Shown here piece after piece: positions 3 through 9,795 of a DNA stretch of 37,657 nt (the stretch's first letter is position 1; the number at the start of each line of letters is the position of its first letter). This DNA is from Candidatus Peregrinibacteria bacterium RIFOXYB2_FULL_33_20 (GTDB lineage Bacteria; Patescibacteriota; Gracilibacteria; UBA1369; GWF2-33-10): positions 1-37,657 of the forward strand of contig MFXK01000024.1 in NCBI GenBank assembly GCA_001788835.1, in the 5' to 3' direction. A program made the position numbers and the translations under genes. The notes beneath the pieces were generated by a model. It saw only the letters and a list, made by a program, of their open reading frames with translations, made no database searches and was not told where the DNA came from.

Positions 3-2174
3 ACAGTTGTGGCTTTGACAAATCAAACAAGTCCAGGTGGTACAGCAGGGGATGGAGCTAATGGTTATTTCGGGGGACAAGCTGATGGTGATGAAGGAGT
101 GCAAAATACAGAACAAGATACAGTTCAAGATACTAATATAAATGAAAATCCTATCACCGAAACAGAGCCTCAAATTGAAAAAGAAGTTTTATTAGATTTA
201 TATATAGATTCTGTTACACAAGTTAACTCTGGATTTAGGGTCAAAATTTGTGCTGATGGAGATGAGGCAACTGATGTTGAATTTTTGGTGAAAATTGGAG
301 AAATTTCTCAAAATCTTCGTTATGGCGGTTCAATTTTTAATGGGCAATGTAAAGAATTAGCGACATGGGAACTTAGTGCTTATAATATAACTGAAAATAA
401 TGAGTATTCTGTATATGCAAAAGTAGATCCGAATAATTTAATGGAAGAAATAAATGAAAACAATAATGAATTTAACGGTAAAGTAACAGTGGCTTTTTAT
501 TCAGAAAATTCTCAAGATACCCAATCAGATCAGACTAAAGACACATCTACAACTACTGATGATACTTCTCAGTTGACCGAGTCTTCTCAAGATTCTTCAA
601 ATATTAGCAGCATAGAAGCTGGCTTAAATACTGATCAATCTGCTGACAACAGTTCTGTCCCTGCAGAAACCGCAGCAGGAAGTTCAGCTGTGGACGCTCA
701 GGTGGAAGTTGAAAATAATCTTGTAGTAGAAGGCATTCCGCTTAATGTACCTACTGAACACGCTTCAGCTGAAGATAGTCTTAATGATGATAAACTCTCT
801 ACCACAAATGGAAATTCCAATAATTCGATTTTAGTGAAAACTACCGTGAGTTTAGTCCCTACTCAAAGAACCATTGCTGATGTGGAAAATTGCAGTGTTC
901 AATATTATGGATCAGGTAAGGATTATCAAGATATTTTGAAAGTATATAATATTTCTGATAAAGATTCGGTGTATTTAGATATAGATGAAGATGGATTAAC
1001 CGCTAAAGAAGAATGTCGTTATGGCACTAATCCTTTTATGGCTGATACAGATAATGATGGCTTATCTGATGGCGAGGAAGTTGATAATTACAAAACTAAT
1101 CCTTTGGTGGTAGACACAGATAATGATAAATATGCTGATGGTTTAGAAATAAAATATAATACTGATCCGCTTGACCCTTCTAGTTATCCTGATATTTGTC
1201 AGATGACGGAATTATATAGTCTGGATTCTGATAATGACGGTTTGCCAAATTCGGTAGAATGTGAAATTGCTACTGACCCTGAGAGTGCTGATTCTGATAA
1301 TGATGGTTTGTCTGATGGTTCTGAGTTTTTGGATTATCATAGCAATCCTTTGAAACTGGATGCGGAGGTTAAATTACAACTTACTTTTCCTCGTTACGAT
1401 GCGAAATTAGCTACCGCCCAACCTTTCTTCCAGGGGGTGGCAAAAAGTGGCGAAGAGGTAACGATTCTTTTGCAACGTGATTTAAATGGGGAAAATATTG
1501 AATTAGGGGCAGTCGTTGCGGGTGAGGGCAATAAATTTATTTTTGAATCAGCGGATAAATTAATAGACGGTACTTACTATGTTTATATTAAGACCAAAAA
1601 TGAACGATCTTTACCAGTCAGATTTATAATCGACAGCAATTTTAGTTTAGACACGGATTTCCAACCGAAGACACTGGGAGGCGAAACAATTACTCAAGAA
1701 GTTTTAGATGGATTAAAAACTTTGGAGATCAATGAAGCTTTGCCTAATTTTACCGGTAAATTGAAAGTTGGCGAGAATCCTAATGTACATGTGCAATTAG
1801 TTTGGCATAGTATTGTGAGTGGAGCGATTGCTATTCAGATGGGAGATAATATTTCTTCACGGCCAACTCATATTTTAGATTTTGGTCCACATGATTTGTT
1901 CGTTTCCGTAATTGATGCTTATGGTAATCAAAGTTCTTATATCAAAGTACCATTTAACGTGGTTGGAGATAGTCTATTAGCAAATTTCCATAGTAATAGT
2001 TTGTCAATTTATTTATTGGTTTTAGCCTTAGCAAGTTTTGTGGGCATTAGTTATTACATACATTTCCGATACCAATACCCTCATGCCATTGTATTAAGCA
2101 GTCAGGATATTGTAACTAGTGTTGCTGATGGTTTTCACGATAAGCTGATGAGAAAGTTTGATTTTAAAGAATAA
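3..2174 (+). CDS. Surface protein with CARDB-like domain, thrombospondin type-3 repeats and C-terminal membrane anchor (5' partial)
   Basis: The frame is open to the left window edge, so the N-terminus is probably missing; the GTG at 9 is unlikely to be the true start. Residues (counted from 9) about 60-160 look like a CARDB-type Ig fold ending in a typical VDPNN..E.NENNNEF segment. A Thr/Ser/Gln/Asp-rich linker follows. About 323-455 hold five Asp-rich repeats of the DxDNDGLxDGEE type with alternating TNP motifs, which in this family bind calcium. Another beta-sandwich-like region follows (about 456-640). A single hydrophobic segment near 652-675 and a short charged tail suggest membrane anchoring with the bulk outside the cell. 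The role is probably adhesion or cell-surface structure; the ligand is unknown. The last 11 bases overlap the convergent exonuclease gene. Confidence 0.8.
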   Translation, partial: TVVALTNQTSPGGTAGDGANGYFGGQADGDEGVQNTEQDTVQDTNINENPITETEPQIEKEVLLDLYIDSVTQVNSGFRVKICADGDEATDVEFLVKIGEISQNLRYGGSIFNGQCKELATWELSAYNITENNEYSVYAKVDPNNLMEEINENNNEFNGKVTVAFYSENSQDTQSDQTKDTSTTTDDTSQLTESSQDSSNISSIEAGLNTDQSADNSSVPAETAAGSSAVDAQVEVENNLVVEGIPLNVPTEHASAEDSLNDDKLSTTNGNSNNSILVKTTVSLVPTQRTIADVENCSVQYYGSGKDYQDILKVYNISDKDSVYLDIDEDGLTAKEECRYGTNPFMADTDNDGLSDGEEVDNYKTNPLVVDTDNDKYADGLEIKYNTDPLDPSSYPDICQMTELYSLDSDNDGLPNSVECEIATDPESADSDNDGLSDGSEFLDYHSNPLKLDAEVKLQLTFPRYDAKLATAQPFFQGVAKSGEEVTILLQRDLNGENIELGAVVAGEGNKFIFESADKLIDGTYYVYIKTKNERSLPVRFIIDSNFSLDTDFQPKTLGGETITQEVLDGLKTLEINEALPNFTGKLKVGENPNVHVQLVWHSIVSGAIAIQMGDNISSRPTHILDFGPHDLFVSVIDAYGNQSSYIKVPFNVVGDSLLANFHSNSLSIYLLVLALASFVGISYYIHFRYQYPHAIVLSSQDIVTSVADGFHDKLMRKFDFKE

Positions 2175-4392
2175 TGTCGGACATGGTACTTAAATTTTCG
2201 ATTAAAGCATTATTGTAGTTTTGGATACGTCGATCCAGACAAAATGTTTGAGTCTCTCGATTTTGAATTTTAGAGAAACTGTTAATAATATTTTTGATTT
2301 CCAAAGTGACTCTGGGGATAGCAAATTCCAGGAAGGTATTTTTGAATTTGGCTGAACTTATTTTGTTGACTGGATTTTTCATATAATCAAACGGTAAGTT
2401 GTAAATTATCAATACTACTTGGGCTTTCAGTTTTTTATTATGTTTGAAAAGGAAGGAATGCAGATTTTCGTATTTTAGGATCAAAATCCGATTTGAGGAG
2501 GTATTTTGGGCCCAAAGTTCCTGGATTTTGCCGATACTGCCGTTGACTTGTTGAGCAAGAATTGCCGTGTTTTCTTTATCGATTTGATCAAATAATAATG
2601 TATATAGATTATTAGAATTCCTTTCCGAACTACTGATAAATATATAATCAGTGTCGTTTTGATTATTGATTATGCTTAAAATTTGTTCGATATCGGATAA
2701 GAAAATTTGATTTTTTTCTGTTTTTTTGTCTTTATCATTAATGTTAATTTTTGTATCTAAAAAATGTTGAATATAGCAATTTTCTGATAGGCTTAAAGGG
2801 AATTCATTATGTGTTTCTATTTCGCTAAAATAATTATTTAATAAGCTGATTTTTTGTGGGAAATTTTTGGGGTAAAATTTTAAAAAAACCTCAGATTTTT
2901 CAGTTTTGTTTAAAGTAAAAACATAGTTATCAAAATCAATATTTAAAATTAGATCCAAAAGCGTGGTAATTTTTAGCGGTAGAGAATAAATCTTTTTAAA
3001 ATTTTCTATCATTTTTTTAATTTGTTGCCAGCTAATATCATTTAGTTGTTTAGGGATAATTTCTTGTTCTGATTTTTCTGTGCCGAACAACTTTTCGTAA
3101 AAAATTCCTAATAAACCAAATAAAATAGTTAGATTGTTATTGAGATTAGCGCTGTTTTTGCCAGTTGCTAGCAGGTTGTTTAAATAAATAGATTGGTTAA
3201 CGTTGGATAGCAGGTGTTTGATGAACAGGTCAGGATTGCAAATTCTTAGAGATTTCATTTTGTTAAAATTAACAGGATTCGCCTTTATTAATTCATAAAG
3301 AAATTCATGTGTAATCATGATTGCTAGGTTTTTTTGTGTTTGTCGCCAAAATTTGGTTTGCAATAAAGAATAAAAGTCGTGGCTGACTGTTTGCCACAAG
3401 TTTTTTTCTTCGTTAAACAATTTAACTATTTTTTTGGAGATTAAATCTGGATTATCAGGGCTATAGCTTTTTTGAAATTTATCGATAACCAGGATCATTT
3501 TTAAACAAAAAATTGTTTCCAGTGGTGATAGTACTTCTTGTTTTAATAAAATGATAAATTTATCGATATCTAAATAATAAGAGGGTTGAAAAATAACAGG
3601 TTGATTACCAATAAAATTCTTATTGAGAGCTTGGCACTCAATATCTAAGACATCACTTTCAGTGGCTTGTTGTTTTGTCGTAGTTTTTTGATTAGGAAAA
3701 AATGTTTGAAAATCATTATCGCTGGATTGGAGACTTTTATTCTGCCAAAATAGAAATTCCTCTGCCCATACGCATTGGCCTTTTTTTAGGATATGATTGA
3801 TCTGTGGCCAGACATTATCGGCAATGTCTCGGATCTGTTCTTGTAGAATTTTGAGTAATTCAATGCAGGCCAGCACATCATCCAAAGCGCGATGAGCATT
3901 TTCATGCGTAATATGAAATTTATGTCCTAGGACTTCTAAGTTGTAACTTTCTTCGCTAGGTAAAATAATTTTTGCTAGTTCATAAGTATCTAATTGAATA
4001 TTGTTGAAATTAAAGCCATGATAATTTAAAAAATTTATATCAAATTCGATAAAATGCCCGACAACCGGCAAATCACCAATAAATTCTTTAATTTTATTTT
4101 TAACTTCTCCAATTTTTGGCGCTTTATATAAATCCTCACTTTTTATTCCAGTAAGGTGTGTAATTTCTTCTGGGACGTCTCTTTCAGGATTAATTAGGGT
4201 TTGATAAGTATCAATAATTTTATTATCATCAAATTTAACCAAAGCAATTTCAATCACTTTTTCATTCTCAGGATTTAGGCCCGTAGCTTCAATGTCAAGG
4301 CAGATGAATTGGCGATTTGCGATATGCGATTTGCGACTTGCGACTTGCGAAGGGCTTTCATTTTGATCGAAGATGGAGAGTTGTTGAGGCAT
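2164..4392 (-). CDS. DEDDh 3'-5' exonuclease fused to a degenerate DinG-like helicase region
   Basis: The N-terminal 30-190 residues form a DnaQ/PolC-type exonuclease: D33 and E35 in LDIEATG, D118 in the VGHFIEFD segment, H167 and D172 in AHRALDD. The remaining 550 residues resemble DinG family helicases in order of segments: an ITHEFL element near 354-370 like the family's TNHALL, NGSIGKIQELW near 616, and NLPFDYMKNPV near 665 followed by a terminal region ending LDRRIQNYNNALIENL, like DinG's LPF..P and D.R tail. However, I find no Walker A GxGKT/S, no DEAH box and no QxxGRxIR motif, so it is probably not an ATP-driven helicase. Residues 4-8, QLSIF, match the bacterial beta-clamp-binding consensus. 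Residues about 15-28 are encoded by a heptamer array. Probable role: DNA repair or proofreading exonuclease. Confidence 0.75.
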   Translation of the reverse strand: MPQQLSIFDQNESPSQVASRKSHIANRQFICLDIEATGLNPENEKVIEIALVKFDDNKIIDTYQTLINPERDVPEEITHLTGIKSEDLYKAPKIGEVKNKIKEFIGDLPVVGHFIEFDINFLNYHGFNFNNIQLDTYELAKIILPSEESYNLEVLGHKFHITHENAHRALDDVLACIELLKILQEQIRDIADNVWPQINHILKKGQCVWAEEFLFWQNKSLQSSDNDFQTFFPNQKTTTKQQATESDVLDIECQALNKNFIGNQPVIFQPSYYLDIDKFIILLKQEVLSPLETIFCLKMILVIDKFQKSYSPDNPDLISKKIVKLFNEEKNLWQTVSHDFYSLLQTKFWRQTQKNLAIMITHEFLYELIKANPVNFNKMKSLRICNPDLFIKHLLSNVNQSIYLNNLLATGKNSANLNNNLTILFGLLGIFYEKLFGTEKSEQEIIPKQLNDISWQQIKKMIENFKKIYSLPLKITTLLDLILNIDFDNYVFTLNKTEKSEVFLKFYPKNFPQKISLLNNYFSEIETHNEFPLSLSENCYIQHFLDTKININDKDKKTEKNQIFLSDIEQILSIINNQNDTDYIFISSSERNSNNLYTLLFDQIDKENTAILAQQVNGSIGKIQELWAQNTSSNRILILKYENLHSFLFKHNKKLKAQVVLIIYNLPFDYMKNPVNKISSAKFKNTFLEFAIPRVTLEIKNIINSFSKIQNRETQTFCLDRRIQNYNNALIENLSTMSDIIL
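4309..4350. repeat. Six tandem 7-bp units (TTGCGA-type) inside a coding sequence
   Basis: Read on the plus strand the units are TTGGCGA, TTTGCGA, TATGCGA, TTTGCGA, CTTGCGA, CTTGCGA with no spacing. They lie within codons about 15-28 of the minus-strand exonuclease gene. Because 7 is not a multiple of 3, successive units are read in different frames, giving a low-complexity linker between the putative clamp-binding peptide and the exonuclease core. Confidence 0.9.
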
Positions 4393-4466
4393 ATGCGAAA
4401 ATATTTGATCAAAAACACTTTACAGTTTTTTAGAAAAAGTAGCGAATGGAGATTTAATAAAGTTTT

Positions 4467-4494
4467 TTGACAATTATCATATTTTTGATAATAT
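4467..4494 (+). promoter_or_regulatory. Putative promoter with internal operator-like palindrome before the radical SAM gene
   Basis: A perfect TTGACA lies at 4467-4472 and a TAATAT -10-like hexamer at 4489-4494 (16-bp spacer). Between them is an inverted repeat, ATTATCA (4473-4479) and TGATAAT (4486-4492), perfect over 7 bp with a 6-base centre. A protein binding there would block polymerase. The start ATG is at 4518. Confidence 0.5.
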
Positions 4495-4517
4495 GTAAAC
4501 TTAAAAAATTATGAATC

Positions 4518-5789
4518 ATGAGTAAACGTATAGCATTGGTATTGTGTCAAACTTCAGATTCAGATTCTCAAAGGATATGGACACCTCCATTAACAACACC
4601 TCTTTTAGCAGAAATATTGCAAGCTAGAGGTTGGATTGTTAGCTTATTTGATTCAAGATTGTTAATTAATCCAAATAATACAAATGAACAAAATGTATCT
4701 AATTTAGCAAATGCTGTACTAGAAGCATTGCCTGACGTAGTTGGATTTTCTTTTTTATCTCCAAATGCACAATTTAGCGAACAAGTTGCATTTGCAATTT
4801 GTAATCAAAACCCTAAATTGCCAATTATAGCTGGCGGAGCTCATTGTTCTTCAGCACCATATTTATACACTAGACCATATAACGTAATTGTACGAGGTGA
4901 AGCTGATGATATAATTGTAGAAATTGCTGATAAACTTATTAAAGATGGAATGCCTAACCGTCAGCTAATAATTCAATCGCCTGTACCAAATTTACAAGAT
5001 AGTCCAATCGTTGTTGGTGCTAATTGGTTTCCTTATAATGATATCTATGAAGGAGCAGAATATAGGACTGGTTATGTTCAGCTTGGACGAGGTTGCCCAT
5101 TTAGTTGTTCATTTTGTAATTCTTCAAATGGACAAAGAACAAGAGCTAGACCAACTGAGGTGATCTTGAAGGAAGTAGAATTATTAAAGGATAAATTTGG
5201 TGTAAAATATATTGGATTTATAGATTCAATTGCAACCAGTGTCCCATTTTTTGATACAACTTTTGAATCTATAAGTGATATATTTGCAGGTAATACAATT
5301 TCGCTTAATTCAACATTTGTGAGATTTACCGAATTAGTTGCTCAAGTTGTTGCTGATTTCAATGGTGATGTAACTATATGGTTCGGTTTAGAAACAGGTA
5401 GTGAAAGAATTGGGAGACAAGAGTTGAAAGGGAAATGGAACAAACAAGCTACTTTTAAAGCTATCAATCTGTGTAAAAAATATGGAATTAAAATAGGCTT
5501 AAATTGCATATTTGGTTTTGCTGATGAAAATGATGATGATCGAAGACAAACAATAGAATTACTCAGAGAACTACAACCTGATTACCCTAACCCAAATATA
5601 TTAAATCCAATACCTGGGACACTTATCTATAATAGATATCTGCAAACAGGTTTACTTCGTGATCCCTTAGATTTATCTATATGGGACGCAAAACGAATTA
5701 GAGAAACAGGAGAAGGACCTATAAATGATTTAGATTATCAAAAAGTTTATGATGCTTACGAAGAAGTAGAAAATTTAAAGAATAATTAA
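4518..5789 (+). CDS. B12-binding-domain radical SAM protein
   Basis: The N-terminal 135 residues have the Rossmann-like layout of cobalamin-binding radical SAM enzymes (IALVLC..., PDVVGFSFLS, LPIIAGGAHCS, VRGEAD). The radical SAM core starts near 186, with the cluster motif C193-PFS-C197-SF-C200 that ligates the 4Fe-4S cluster. No DxHxxG motif is visible, which is common in this class because the lower axial ligand is often not a protein histidine. At 423 residues it is complete for the shorter members; no extra C-terminal domain is obvious. The substrate cannot be told from sequence; family members methylate, cyclise or rearrange small molecules, lipids or RNA. It ends 2 bp before the convergent cobC-cobS-cobT operon, which suggests that the operon provides its cofactor. 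Confidence 0.88.
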   Translation: MSKRIALVLCQTSDSDSQRIWTPPLTTPLLAEILQARGWIVSLFDSRLLINPNNTNEQNVSNLANAVLEALPDVVGFSFLSPNAQFSEQVAFAICNQNPKLPIIAGGAHCSSAPYLYTRPYNVIVRGEADDIIVEIADKLIKDGMPNRQLIIQSPVPNLQDSPIVVGANWFPYNDIYEGAEYRTGYVQLGRGCPFSCSFCNSSNGQRTRARPTEVILKEVELLKDKFGVKYIGFIDSIATSVPFFDTTFESISDIFAGNTISLNSTFVRFTELVAQVVADFNGDVTIWFGLETGSERIGRQELKGKWNKQATFKAINLCKKYGIKIGLNCIFGFADENDDDRRQTIELLRELQPDYPNPNILNPIPGTLIYNRYLQTGLLRDPLDLSIWDAKRIRETGEGPINDLDYQKVYDAYEEVENLKNN

Positions 5790-5791
5790 TG

Positions 5792-6355
5792 TTAACTATT
5801 CAAACATATTTTTGTCATAGACCCGTATTTCATAATGGGAAATGTATGTAATGGTTGATTGTTAATAATTGAATGTAAACAGGCATTGCTAAAACTATGC
5901 CCAACAATAGCCATTTGCTTAAATGATTTATTTTTTAATTTGTCCCAGCTTGTTTTAATTCTTTTAAAAAATGATTGATAATTTTCTCCTTCTGGGAATG
6001 AAATTTTTTCTAATTGTCCTGTTTCCCAAAAATTATAATAATTTTTTAAATCTTCAGGAAAATTATTTTCGATATCTTCAATTCTAAGATTATCCCATAA
6101 ACCAAAATCAATTTCTTTTAAATTTGGCTCAATAATATTTTTAATATTATGGTTTAAAAATTGACTGATAAAATCTGTCCTTTTGAGACCTGTTGTAATG
6201 CAAATATCAATTTTGATATTATTAAGAAATTTAGCAATTTCTTTTGACTGCACAATCCCTTTATTTGAAAGTTCGCAATCACATTTTTTACCACGGAAAC
6301 TTTTTTGGAAATTTTTTTCAACTTCACCATGTCTTATGATATAAATTATTTTCAT
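5792..6355 (-). CDS. cobC: Histidine phosphatase family protein, probable alpha-ribazole phosphatase (CobC)
   Basis: It begins MKIIYIIRHGEVEKN, with the RHG phosphohistidine motif (H9), then LSNKGIVQSKEIAKFL and the second catalytic histidine in IVGHSFSN, the hallmarks of the histidine phosphatase superfamily. The length (187 aa) fits CobC. The family alone does not fix the substrate, but the position as third gene after cobT and cobS (4-bp overlap with cobS) supports removal of the 5'-phosphate from alpha-ribazole phosphate or cobalamin phosphate in nucleotide-loop assembly. A broad-specificity phosphoglycerate-mutase-like phosphatase is the alternative. Confidence 0.8.
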   Translation of the reverse strand: MKIIYIIRHGEVEKNFQKSFRGKKCDCELSNKGIVQSKEIAKFLNNIKIDICITTGLKRTDFISQFLNHNIKNIIEPNLKEIDFGLWDNLRIEDIENNFPEDLKNYYNFWETGQLEKISFPEGENYQSFFKRIKTSWDKLKNKSFKQMAIVGHSFSNACLHSIINNQPLHTFPIMKYGSMTKICLNS

Positions 6356-7155
6356 TTAATAAATATGAAAATTAGATAAATAACCACTTCAGATATTTGT
6401 TGTGTTGCACCTAAGCAGTCGCCTGTAGCTCCTTGAATCTTATGATGATAATAAAAACCACTAGCAATGCCGATTATACTAGTAGCCAATATTAGATATA
6501 AAGCGTTATATCCTAGTATTAGGATAACGCTTCCAATACTAAATATACTTGATATTATAACTATCCACCACGGCATATTATTTATACTTTCAACAAAAAA
6601 TTTACTTGGACTGGTACTTTTATATGGATAGCGTAAAAACAACATCATTGGTAATATAATCCATCTTGATAGGATTTGAGCTGTACATACTATAGCTCCT
6701 AAATAAGTAGATTCTATATTAGATAAAGTAGTAAATTTAAGAAAAAATATTGCAACAATAGCCAAAGTTCCAAAAGTACCTATTCTACTATCTTTCATAA
6801 CTCGTAATATATCTTTTTTTTTGAATTGTGAACCAAAGGCATCGAAAGCATCTGCCAAACCATCTTCATGCAAACCTCCTGTGATATACATTAACAAACA
6901 AAGAAGAAGAACAATAAGAATATTTTTTGGTAGAAATTCTAAATTAACTTTGATAAATATCCATGCGACAAAACCAATTAAGGCTCCAATTAATGGGAAG
7001 TAAGCTATTGCATATTTTAGTTGTTTCATATCGTCATTTTGACTTGGAAAAAATAACTTTGGGATAGGTATTTTTGTAAAAAAAACCAATGATATTACAA
7101 AGTGTTTATATAGATTTTTGATCAATTTTTGCACTTTCGAATGATGCCATGTCAC
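6352..7155 (-). CDS. cobS: Adenosylcobinamide-GDP ribazoletransferase (cobalamin synthase)
   Basis: It is a hydrophobic protein with about six to seven membrane segments and the family signature GGLHEDGLADAFDAFGS near residues 92-108, followed by MKDSRIGTFG. FFTKIPIPK near residue 25 matches the family's N-terminal FLTRLPVP. CobS joins alpha-ribazole (phosphate) to adenosylcobinamide-GDP at the membrane, the last joining step of B12 assembly. The ATG at 7155 overlaps cobT by 50 bp; a TTG at 7125 would place the FFTKIP motif where it lies in typical CobS proteins, so the true start may be there. No cobU/cobP gene lies in the window to supply the GDP-activated substrate. Confidence 0.92.
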   Translation of the reverse strand: MTWHHSKVQKLIKNLYKHFVISLVFFTKIPIPKLFFPSQNDDMKQLKYAIAYFPLIGALIGFVAWIFIKVNLEFLPKNILIVLLLCLLMYITGGLHEDGLADAFDAFGSQFKKKDILRVMKDSRIGTFGTLAIVAIFFLKFTTLSNIESTYLGAIVCTAQILSRWIILPMMLFLRYPYKSTSPSKFFVESINNMPWWIVIISSIFSIGSVILILGYNALYLILATSIIGIASGFYYHHKIQGATGDCLGATQQISEVVIYLIFIFIK

Positions 7156-8161
7156 TCATCATTTTGCAAGCCAAATCAAAAATATATACTGCTAAAACCG
7201 CGCCAGTTCCTTCTCCTAATCGCATATCAAGATCAAGAAAATCATCAATTCCAATATACTTAATCAACTCTTTATGTGCTCTTTCAACACCTTTATGAGA
7301 AGCAAATAAGTATTCTTTGATATTTGGATTTAATAAACATGCTAAAGCGGCACTACTTAAAGATATATATCCATCAAGAATACAAGGAATCTTATATTTT
7401 GCGGCCCCAATACATACACCGGTCATTCCTGCAATTTCTAAACCACCAATTTTAGTAAGAATATCAATTGCATCAGTTGAACAAGGCTGATTTTTTCTGA
7501 TACTTCTATTAATTATATCAGCTTTGTGTTTTCTTTGCTCTTCAGTGATCCCAGTACCATAACAAGTAAGAGCTAAAGGTTTTATATTGGTTAATACGGA
7601 TGTTATTGCGGTTGTAGATGTGGTGTTCCCAATCCCCATTTCTCCAATGCTTAATAATTGAATTCCATCATTTGCCGCTTTATATGCCATTTCAATCCCA
7701 ATTTCTATAGCATCTTTCACTTCCTGAGTTGTTAACGCAGGTCCATGCAAAAAATTACGAGTTCCTTTCCGGATTTTTTTATTAATTAAACAGTTATTTT
7801 TTTCAAATTCAAAATTTACCCCAATATCAATAATATGTAGTTCAATATTTTGCATACTCGAAAATACATTGATAGCGGCCCCACCATTAAGAAAATTTTG
7901 CACCATTTGTGCTGTGACAGATTGTGGATAAGCACTAACAGATTCTGCGGTAATTCCATGATCTCCTGCAAAAATTAGATGACGTTTGTTAGTAATTTGA
8001 GGATTAAGTGTTTCTTGAATTAATCCAAGCCTTAAAGCAATATTTTCAATTTTGCCAAGACTACCTATTGGTTTAGTTAAATTGTCAATTTTACTTAATA
8101 ATTTTCCCTTTAATGTTTGATCAGGAATATTAATTTGTTTAATGACATCTTGAAAATCCAT
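7106..8161 (-). CDS. cobT: Nicotinate-nucleotide--dimethylbenzimidazole phosphoribosyltransferase
   Basis: It is full length (351 aa) with the family's landmarks: KPIGSLGKIE near residue 31, FAGDHGITAESVSAYPQSVT near 68, GEMGIGNTTST in the middle, and MRLGEGTGAVLA near the C-terminus containing the catalytic glutamate. It transfers ribose-5-phosphate from nicotinate mononucleotide to a benzimidazole-type base, giving alpha-ribazole-5'-phosphate for CobS. It is the first gene of cobT-cobS-cobC. I looked for a cobalamin riboswitch in the AT-rich leader (8162-8296) and saw none. Confidence 0.95.
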   Translation of the reverse strand: MDFQDVIKQINIPDQTLKGKLLSKIDNLTKPIGSLGKIENIALRLGLIQETLNPQITNKRHLIFAGDHGITAESVSAYPQSVTAQMVQNFLNGGAAINVFSSMQNIELHIIDIGVNFEFEKNNCLINKKIRKGTRNFLHGPALTTQEVKDAIEIGIEMAYKAANDGIQLLSIGEMGIGNTTSTTAITSVLTNIKPLALTCYGTGITEEQRKHKADIINRSIRKNQPCSTDAIDILTKIGGLEIAGMTGVCIGAAKYKIPCILDGYISLSSAALACLLNPNIKEYLFASHKGVERAHKELIKYIGIDDFLDLDMRLGEGTGAVLAVYIFDLACKMMSDMASFESAKIDQKSI

Positions 8162-8296
8162 AAGGAATTAATAATTTTAATTAAAAAAAATTTAGAAAAT
8201 AATACAAACTTTCTATATATAAACATATGATCTCAGAGATTTGATGTAATTTCAATATATGTAATAAATTTTAAAATTTTATACATTTTGTTTTTC

Positions 8297-8334
8297 TAAG
8301 TTGTGAAAAATAACCTCTTTGAGGAATAAAATGA
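8297..8334 (+). repeat. Upstream copy of a 38-bp direct repeat before the abiE genes
   Basis: It begins TAAGTTGTGAAAAATAAC and ends GAGGAATAAAATGA, matching 8372-8409 at 34 of 38 positions with a 75-bp offset. It contains a short inverted repeat, CCTC-TTT-GAGG, and its GAGG plus ATG (8331) would act as ribosome binding site and start codon of a 16-codon ORF. Confidence 0.85.
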
Positions 8335-8381
8335 TTTTACTTTTTTTAAGATATGGGGCATTATATTTCTGTAAGTTGTGA
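8331..8381 (+). CDS. Possible 16-residue leader peptide ORF
   Basis: An ATG lies 6 bases after a GAGG. The ORF encodes MILLFLRYGALYFCKL and stops at a TGA inside the second copy of the 38-bp repeat. It may be a leader peptide, or merely the by-product of a duplicated gene-start region. No homology evidence is available. Confidence 0.25.
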   Translation: MILLFLRYGALYFCKL

Positions 8382-8409
8382 AAAATAACACTTTTGAGAA
8401 ATAAAATGA
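8372..8409 (+). repeat. Downstream copy of the 38-bp direct repeat, spanning the abiEi start codon
   Basis: It matches 8297-8334 at 34 of 38 positions, and its 3' end contains the ATG (8406) chosen for the antitoxin gene. Because this class of antitoxin commonly represses its own operon through repeats in the promoter region, the pair is a candidate autoregulatory site. Confidence 0.85.
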
Positions 8410-9026
8410 CATTTTTAGAATTAAAATTCGCTTTAAGTAAGTTTTTAGTTTTTTCTTTAAATGATATTAGGAAGATTGATAGTGCTTTTGACAGAAGAAG
8501 ACTGGTTGAATGGCAAGAAAAAGGATATATAAAAAAAGTTATAAAAAAATATTATATATTTTCCGATATAGGACTTAACGAATATAGTCTTTTTGTAATA
8601 GCAAATAAAATTTATAGTCCGTCATATATTTCATTTGAACAAGCATTGTCATGTTATAATTTAATTCCAGAAGGTGTTTTTGTGATAACTTCCGCAACAA
8701 GCAAAAAAACAGCCGAATTTTTTACTACAGTTGCTAATTTTAGTTATAATTCTTTGAAAGAGACGTTGATGTTTGGATATTGCGTGAAATATGACAGAAA
8801 TAATCTTCCGTATAATATGGCTGACATTGAAAAAACAGTTTTAGATTATTTTTATATTCATAGTAATTTAAAAACTGAAGATGATTTTTTTGAAATGAGA
8901 TTTAATGCTGAAGAGTTTTTGTCTCAATTTGATGAAGAGAAGTTTTTCAGATATTTAAATGTTTTTAAAAATAAAGAGTTAGAAAAACGTATGCAAAAAT
9001 TTTTAATTTTTTTAAAAAATGCTTAA
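8406..9026 (+). CDS. abiEi: AbiEi-family antitoxin of a type IV toxin-antitoxin pair
   Basis: The N-terminal 60 residues look like the winged-helix part of AbiEi-type antitoxins (RRRLVEWQEKGYIKKVIKKYYIFSD). The rest follows the family pattern: YSPSYISFEQALSCYNLIPE, VITSATSKKTAEF, MADIEKTVLDYFY. A TTG at 8394 is possible, but the ATG at 8406 has the same relative position as the ATG in the upstream repeat copy, so I chose it. It overlaps the toxin gene by 8 bp. The expected role is to counteract the nucleotidyltransferase toxin without direct binding and to repress the operon. Confidence 0.85.
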   Translation: MTFLELKFALSKFLVFSLNDIRKIDSAFDRRRLVEWQEKGYIKKVIKKYYIFSDIGLNEYSLFVIANKIYSPSYISFEQALSCYNLIPEGVFVITSATSKKTAEFFTTVANFSYNSLKETLMFGYCVKYDRNNLPYNMADIEKTVLDYFYIHSNLKTEDDFFEMRFNAEEFLSQFDEEKFFRYLNVFKNKELEKRMQKFLIFLKNA

Positions 9027-9795
9027 TTTAAATGAAATAATTTCACAATTTTCTCCTTATTTACACGATCAAAAACGAAATATTTTAAGAGAGTATTTGC
9101 AGTATAAAATTTTAGAGATAATTTTTGATTCTAAATATGCAAATAAGTTATCTTTTTTAGGAGGTACTGCGCTTAGGATTGTTTATAACAATAGCAGATT
9201 TTCTGATGATTTAGACTTTGATAATTTTAATTTAACAAAAGATGATTTCGCGAATTTATCATTGATTATTAAAGAGAGACTGCATAAAGAAGGATTTGAA
9301 GTTGACGTGCGAAATGTTTTTAAAAGTGCTTTTAGAACTTATATTAAAATTCCTGATATACTTTTTCAAAATCAAATATCGCCTTATAAAAATGAAGTTT
9401 TGTTAATTCAAGTTGACACAGTACCGCATTATTATGATTACAAAGTAGATCGAAAATTATTAAATAAATTTGGTGTATTTACTGAAATTAATGTTACACC
9501 GTTACCAATCCTGCTTGCTCAAAAGATTTATGCCGCTTTCCAGAGAAAAAGAACTCAGGGAAGAGATTTTTATGATATTGTCTTTTTAATGTCTTTCAAT
9601 GTAGATCCTGATTTTAATTATTTGAAAAAAGCTATTGATGTGAAAAATAAAGTTGAATTAAAAAAATATATTTTACGAAATTCCAAAAATTTAGATTTTA
9701 CAAAATTGGCATTTGATTTTGAATATTTTCTTTTTAAAAGAAATGACACAAAAAGAGTCTTATTATTTAAAGAATATATAAAAAGTGTGTTGTGA
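9019..9795 (+). CDS. abiEii: AbiEii-family nucleotidyltransferase toxin
   Basis: It has the diagnostic motifs of the AbiEii/AbiGii nucleotidyltransferase family: FLGGTALR (G48-G49-T50) and RFSDDLDF (D64, D66 as metal ligands), then LIQVDTVPHY and the PLPILLAQKIYAAFQRKRTQGRDFYDIVFL block. Characterised members are GTP-binding or nucleotidylating toxins whose activity stops growth and can give phage resistance. It directly follows and overlaps the cognate antitoxin. The intact length (258 aa) and active-site motifs suggest a working toxin. Confidence 0.92.
   Translation: MLNLNEIISQFSPYLHDQKRNILREYLQYKILEIIFDSKYANKLSFLGGTALRIVYNNSRFSDDLDFDNFNLTKDDFANLSLIIKERLHKEGFEVDVRNVFKSAFRTYIKIPDILFQNQISPYKNEVLLIQVDTVPHYYDYKVDRKLLNKFGVFTEINVTPLPILLAQKIYAAFQRKRTQGRDFYDIVFLMSFNVDPDFNYLKKAIDVKNKVELKKYILRNSKNLDFTKLAFDFEYFLFKRNDTKRVLLFKEYIKSVL

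Follow-up and report, generated by a model that had tools for sequence, protein, structure and literature searches.

Why would a bacterium with a reduced genome carry genes for the last steps of cobamide assembly, and what could it do with them if the steps before are missing? The question is raised by a block of genes in a 37,657-nucleotide stretch of DNA (the window) from Candidatus Peregrinibacteria bacterium RIFOXYB2_FULL_33_20. This stretch is contig C24 of a genome of 1.5 Mb, which consists of 42 contigs and is 96.4% complete with a contamination of 0.54%. The four genes of positions 4518-8161 were scored against Pfam and NCBIfam profile families using the curated cut-offs. The features are as follows.

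4518..5789, plus strand: B12-binding-domain radical SAM protein, 423 aa; PF04055 67 bits and PF02310 42 bits.
5792..6355, minus strand: cobC, alpha-ribazole(-5'-P) phosphatase of histidine phosphatase branch 1, 187 aa; PF00300 99 bits.
6352..7155, minus strand: cobS, adenosylcobinamide-GDP ribazoletransferase (cobalamin-5'-phosphate synthase), 267 aa from a GTG start.
7106..8161, minus strand: cobT, nicotinate-nucleotide:dimethylbenzimidazole phosphoribosyltransferase, 351 aa; PF02277 415 bits, TIGR03160 417 bits (cut-off 319).
4439..8317 (approximate limits), no strand: segment missing from the syntenic site of G001, a genome of the same family but a different genus; from blastn and gene order on L149.

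The three cob genes form an operon that runs from 8161 to 5792 on the minus strand. The overlap between cobT and cobS is at most 50 bp and that between cobS and cobC is 4 bp. The stop codon of cobC is 2 bp away from that of the radical SAM gene, and the two genes are convergent. This arrangement had been described in an earlier, sequence-only reading of the window, and the coordinates and the families agree with it. That reading had also noted that cobU and cobA are missing from the window, and neither was found there.

At the level of sequence, the identities of cobT, cobS and cobC are solid. CobT keeps the active-site glutamates E174 and E317, at the same numbers, together with 56 of the 62 positions at which at least 90% of 87 homologues agree. 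Its best match in the Protein Data Bank is the CobT of T. thermophilus (1wx1, E 9e-73). CobS scores 173 bits with PF02654 (cut-off 23) and 119 bits with TIGR00317 (cut-off 110), and its best NCBIfam subfamily model is NF001277. The real start of CobS is perhaps slightly downstream of the GTG, because the Pfam match begins at residue 23. Highly conserved positions are retained at 21 of 23 sites, and the protein has H95-D97-G98, D101, D104 and G241-x-TGD (the numbering omits the start residue). The histidine phosphatase motifs of CobC are present (RHG at 8 and GHS at 152). Its top NCBIfam model is the alpha-ribazole phosphatase family TIGR03162, but the score of 105 bits is under the cut-off of 163, so that the name CobC leans partly on the operon context. 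All three reading frames are intact, with no sign of degradation, and the proteins are ordinary members of described families.

The operon is extremely rare in the lineage. CobT exceeds the family cut-off in one of the 40 genomes sampled from the order and in one of the 380 sampled from the phylum, and CobS in one of the 380; in each case this is the genome of the window itself. The control genomes matched as expected, showing that the CobT and CobS searches work. Two further matches in the phylum, to CobT in G238 and to CobS in G224, were rejected as short and below the family cut-offs. The earlier suggestion that this would be an unusual ability for the lineage is thus well founded. A study of groundwater CPR bacteria reports that cobS is absent from its CPR genomes, and describes a plasmid linked to CPR on which 'cobS and cobT' are called cobaltochelatases (PMC12023590). 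The cobaltochelatase CobS and CobT share their names with the nucleotide-loop enzymes, but not their ancestry (PMC8123684).

The contig is native to the lineage, as the CarA it encodes is 57-65% identical to CarA in 33 other genomes of the order (the identity to G001 CarA is 85%, over 27 aa). In G001, the gene order is carA, a 166-aa protein, AbiEii, AbiEi, an exonuclease and a thrombospondin-type-repeat protein. The genes of the window follow this order too, except that the radical SAM gene and cobC-cobS-cobT lie between the exonuclease and AbiEi. In blastn alignments, positions 467-536 of the G001 site correspond to 4367-4438 of the window and positions 528-901 to 8318-8691. The G001 DNA therefore passes directly from the homologue of 4438 to that of 8318, and the site is empty, being about 3.9 kb shorter. 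The G001 genome is 73% complete, but the syntenic site itself is intact. The simplest reading of the two sequences is a single insertion of about 3.9 kb in the genus of the window; loss in G001 would also demand loss across the order and the phylum. The horizontal acquisition of the segment from another bacterium is therefore well supported, and the transfer that the sequence-only reading had proposed is borne out by the empty site. The radical SAM gene lies within the same inserted segment, which makes its joint arrival with the cob genes likely. No target-site duplication was found around the insert.

Base composition is a weak argument for this transfer. The genes of the block have a GC content of 0.25-0.33 (the mean for the other genes of the window is 0.339) and a GC3 of 0.15-0.19 (0.27 for the others). 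The AT-richness claimed earlier is borne out only partly, as the AbiE genes next to the block match it in AT content and have an equally low GC3. These genes, at 8394-9795, encode AbiEi and AbiEii, a type IV toxin-antitoxin pair (abortive infection), whose members are 92% and 86% identical to those found at the corresponding locus of G001. At 8269-8409, a 66-nt stretch that takes in the AbiEi start region occurs twice in tandem; the copies are 79% alike with a spacing of 75 and are perhaps the AbiEi operator. Unlike the AbiE pair, the genes on the exonuclease side of the insert are only 40-50% identical to those of G001. The exonuclease gene (2164-4392) encodes 742 aa, comprising an N-terminal DEDDh exonuclease domain followed by about 500 fast-changing residues without assignment. 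Its product is 40% identical to the G001 copy, which contains a short internal repeat, APLEHLCI.

The donor of the segment is left open, because CobT and CobS are placed differently and grouping with Bacteroidota is rejected for neither (AU p 0.165 for CobT and 0.39 for CobS). CobT, whose relatives outside the lineage are 37-47% identical, sits on a long branch close to a pair formed by Myxococcota and Desulfobulbaceae (89). CobS, also on a long branch, shares a starred clade (96*) with Bacteroidota and Pseudomonadota. The order cobT-cobS-cobC is also found in Bacteroidota, for example in Persicobacter JZB09 and on the Parabacteroides distasonis plasmid NZ_OY725752 (cbiB - S4 - cobU - cobT - cobS - cobC). 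Operons of this kind normally have cobU close by, but that of the window has no nearby cobU and no riboswitch; its CobT is about 40% identical to theirs and does not clearly group with them, whereas CobS, about 28-34% identical, does fall with Bacteroidota and Pseudomonadota. Carriage by a mobile element was considered and rejected: viral contigs contain one partial CobT relative (33%) and no relative of the radical SAM protein, phages searched with the radical SAM query gave no match, and the plasmid relatives of CobT are all below 60% identity, the best being 41%.

The consumer of a finished cobamide is most clearly seen elsewhere in the genome. Contig C34 encodes NrdJ, the adenosylcobalamin (AdoCbl)-dependent ribonucleotide reductase (1048 aa; NF005122, 1296 bits with a cut-off of 859), and contig C20 a PduO adenosyltransferase (TIGR00636, 201 bits with a cut-off of 108). 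The pduO gene is at the contig edge (L010 116-2252, G000:C20), divergent from a gene for a large FG-GAP-repeat protein. NrdJ exceeds its cut-off in 33 of the 40 genomes of the order and PduO in 29, which indicates that B12 use is native to the order and that the lower-ligand genes are the sole novelty.

The radical SAM protein had been named as the nearby user of the operon's product, but this is not supported, as nearness is the sole reason for it, the gene is convergent and it has no family assignment. Both class B domains exceed the Pfam cut-offs and the CxxxCxxC motif is present, as GCPFSCSFC, and the protein may bind cobalamin. No NCBIfam equivalog or subfamily model reaches its cut-off, and the closest proteins found are about 23-29% identical. 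A second B12-binding-domain radical SAM protein of 461 aa (L008 1441-2826; G000:C10:93385-94770) adjoins a small nucleotide-kinase-like protein. It is the sole other match to the B12-binding family in the genome, a weak one that is below the Pfam cut-off.

The steps that should precede CobS are harder to account for. A search of the whole genome for CobU and CbiB found neither, and no cobU remnant is present upstream of cobT in the window. A FecCD (BtuC-type) permease was not found in the genome either. Seven FecCD matches in relatives were checked and turned out to be ABC-3 metal permeases; the 40 genomes of the order contain no confirmed BtuC-type permease, despite NrdJ in 33 of them. An Rfam scan matched no family in the window, which therefore has no cobalamin riboswitch, nor was one found in the rest of the genome or in 20 relatives. 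Of the corrinoid-handling functions that the sequence-only reading had suggested looking for in the genome, PduO is thus present, but CobU and the permease were not found, nor was CbiB, and the proposal that the operon finishes salvaged precursors is weakened to that extent. Cobinamide salvage in the ordinary manner of E. coli is incomplete on present evidence: E. coli has the same three enzymes in its cobUST and cobC genes, but it also has CobU.

As neither CobU nor CbiB was found, the cell is likelier to exchange the lower ligand than to complete cobinamide de novo. The favoured reading is that the acquired CobT, CobS and CobC remodel scavenged cobamides and that the product serves NrdJ, although we hold it tentatively, at somewhat below even chances. 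It would also require the fewest missing parts. The 3.9-kb segment would enable the cell to carry out the three final steps in making a cobamide. CobT would convert dimethylbenzimidazole, or a similar base, to alpha-ribazole phosphate, the membrane enzyme CobS would join this to a scavenged corrinoid, and CobC would take off the phosphate. CobS itself would act on scavenged cobamides that are already complete, pseudocobalamin for instance, and exchange their lower ligand. The product would then be adenosylated by PduO and consumed mainly by NrdJ. The activities and the substrate of the three enzymes, the direct exchange, the uptake route and the source of the base are what we infer here. To our knowledge, few CobS homologues have been reported to carry out direct exchange, and no feature of the sequence is known to determine it. 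The CobS of V. cholerae is said, by Ma and Beld in 2021, to act directly on pseudocobalamin.

Two known systems resemble the proposed one. Remodelling in Vibrio cholerae involves CobS according to Ma et al. 2020, as cited in PMC7733943, and the likeness would be that of a cell whose CobS swaps the lower ligand without a start by an enzyme of the CbiZ or CbiR type. CobU is normal in such salvagers, but was not found in the genome of the window. Algae that remodel pseudocobalamin have COBT, COBS and COBC without CbiZ or CbiB (PMC4850488); they share with the window the same three genes, the absence of a detected CbiB and the use of B12 by a cell that does not build the corrin itself. The algae differ in being eukaryotes that use METH, and their initiating enzyme is disputed, the one responsible being still unidentified according to PMC7733943.

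The main rival of remodelling is ordinary cobinamide salvage, in which CobT, CobS and CobC complete cobinamide, and CobU, or a non-homologous kinase and guanylyltransferase such as CobY, was missed or is in a gap. We consider it unlikely, but worth keeping in view. Among 39 reference loci with adjacent cobT and cobS, 37 have cobU within 4.5 kb, which makes its absence here unusual; at 96.4% completeness and in 42 contigs, cobU could sit in a gap, and the genome-wide search was one for CobU and CbiB. Nevertheless, that search found neither of the two, and cobU is not at its usual place beside cobT.

It is improbable that the operon is non-functional, a piece of a longer nucleotide-loop operon that was recently acquired and is now being lost. 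The missing first gene, cobU, the lack of a riboswitch and the long branches in both trees would agree with such decay, but the three overlapping frames are intact, and nearly all invariant residues of CobT and CobS are kept, which is not expected for a long-neutral sequence. A partner might instead carry out the missing steps, an attached host giving the cell an activated corrinoid (AdoCbi-GDP or AdoCbi-P), or alpha-ribazole phosphate or a cobamide being given back. Lineages of this kind are commonly held to live attached to other cells, and the missing CobU and CbiB would fit such an exchange. We regard it as quite improbable, however, because we know of no transporter for AdoCbi-GDP-type intermediates, no host is identified and remodelling is the simpler model. 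An assembly chimera or bin contamination is very improbable, for although the assembly has 42 contigs and the block is found nowhere else in the lineage, it lies within one contig of a genome with 0.54% contamination, between flanks that are neighbours in G001, so that a chimera would need two misjoins at one intergenic site.

What is new, then, is the setting. A reduced genome has acquired an intact lower-ligand operon without CobU, and the operon is absent from its relatives. In the literature searched, no paper was found that joins Patescibacteria, ribonucleotide reductase and B12. Remodelling has a more far-reaching version, possible but doubtful, in which an ultra-reduced bacterium acquired the three-enzyme set whole, without CobU, CbiB or CbiZ, and uses it to convert the cobamide of its host or community for an essential ribonucleotide reductase.

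Most sampled genomes of the order rely on B12 for deoxynucleotide synthesis, yet no BtuC-type importer is seen in them and none of the 21 scanned has a cobalamin riboswitch. That one member gained genes for the lower ligand suggests that growth is limited by which form of cobamide a partner supplies. The operon offers a way to test how reduced, probably host-associated bacteria depend on corrinoids, and could show whether CobT, CobS and CobC alone suffice for remodelling without CobU.
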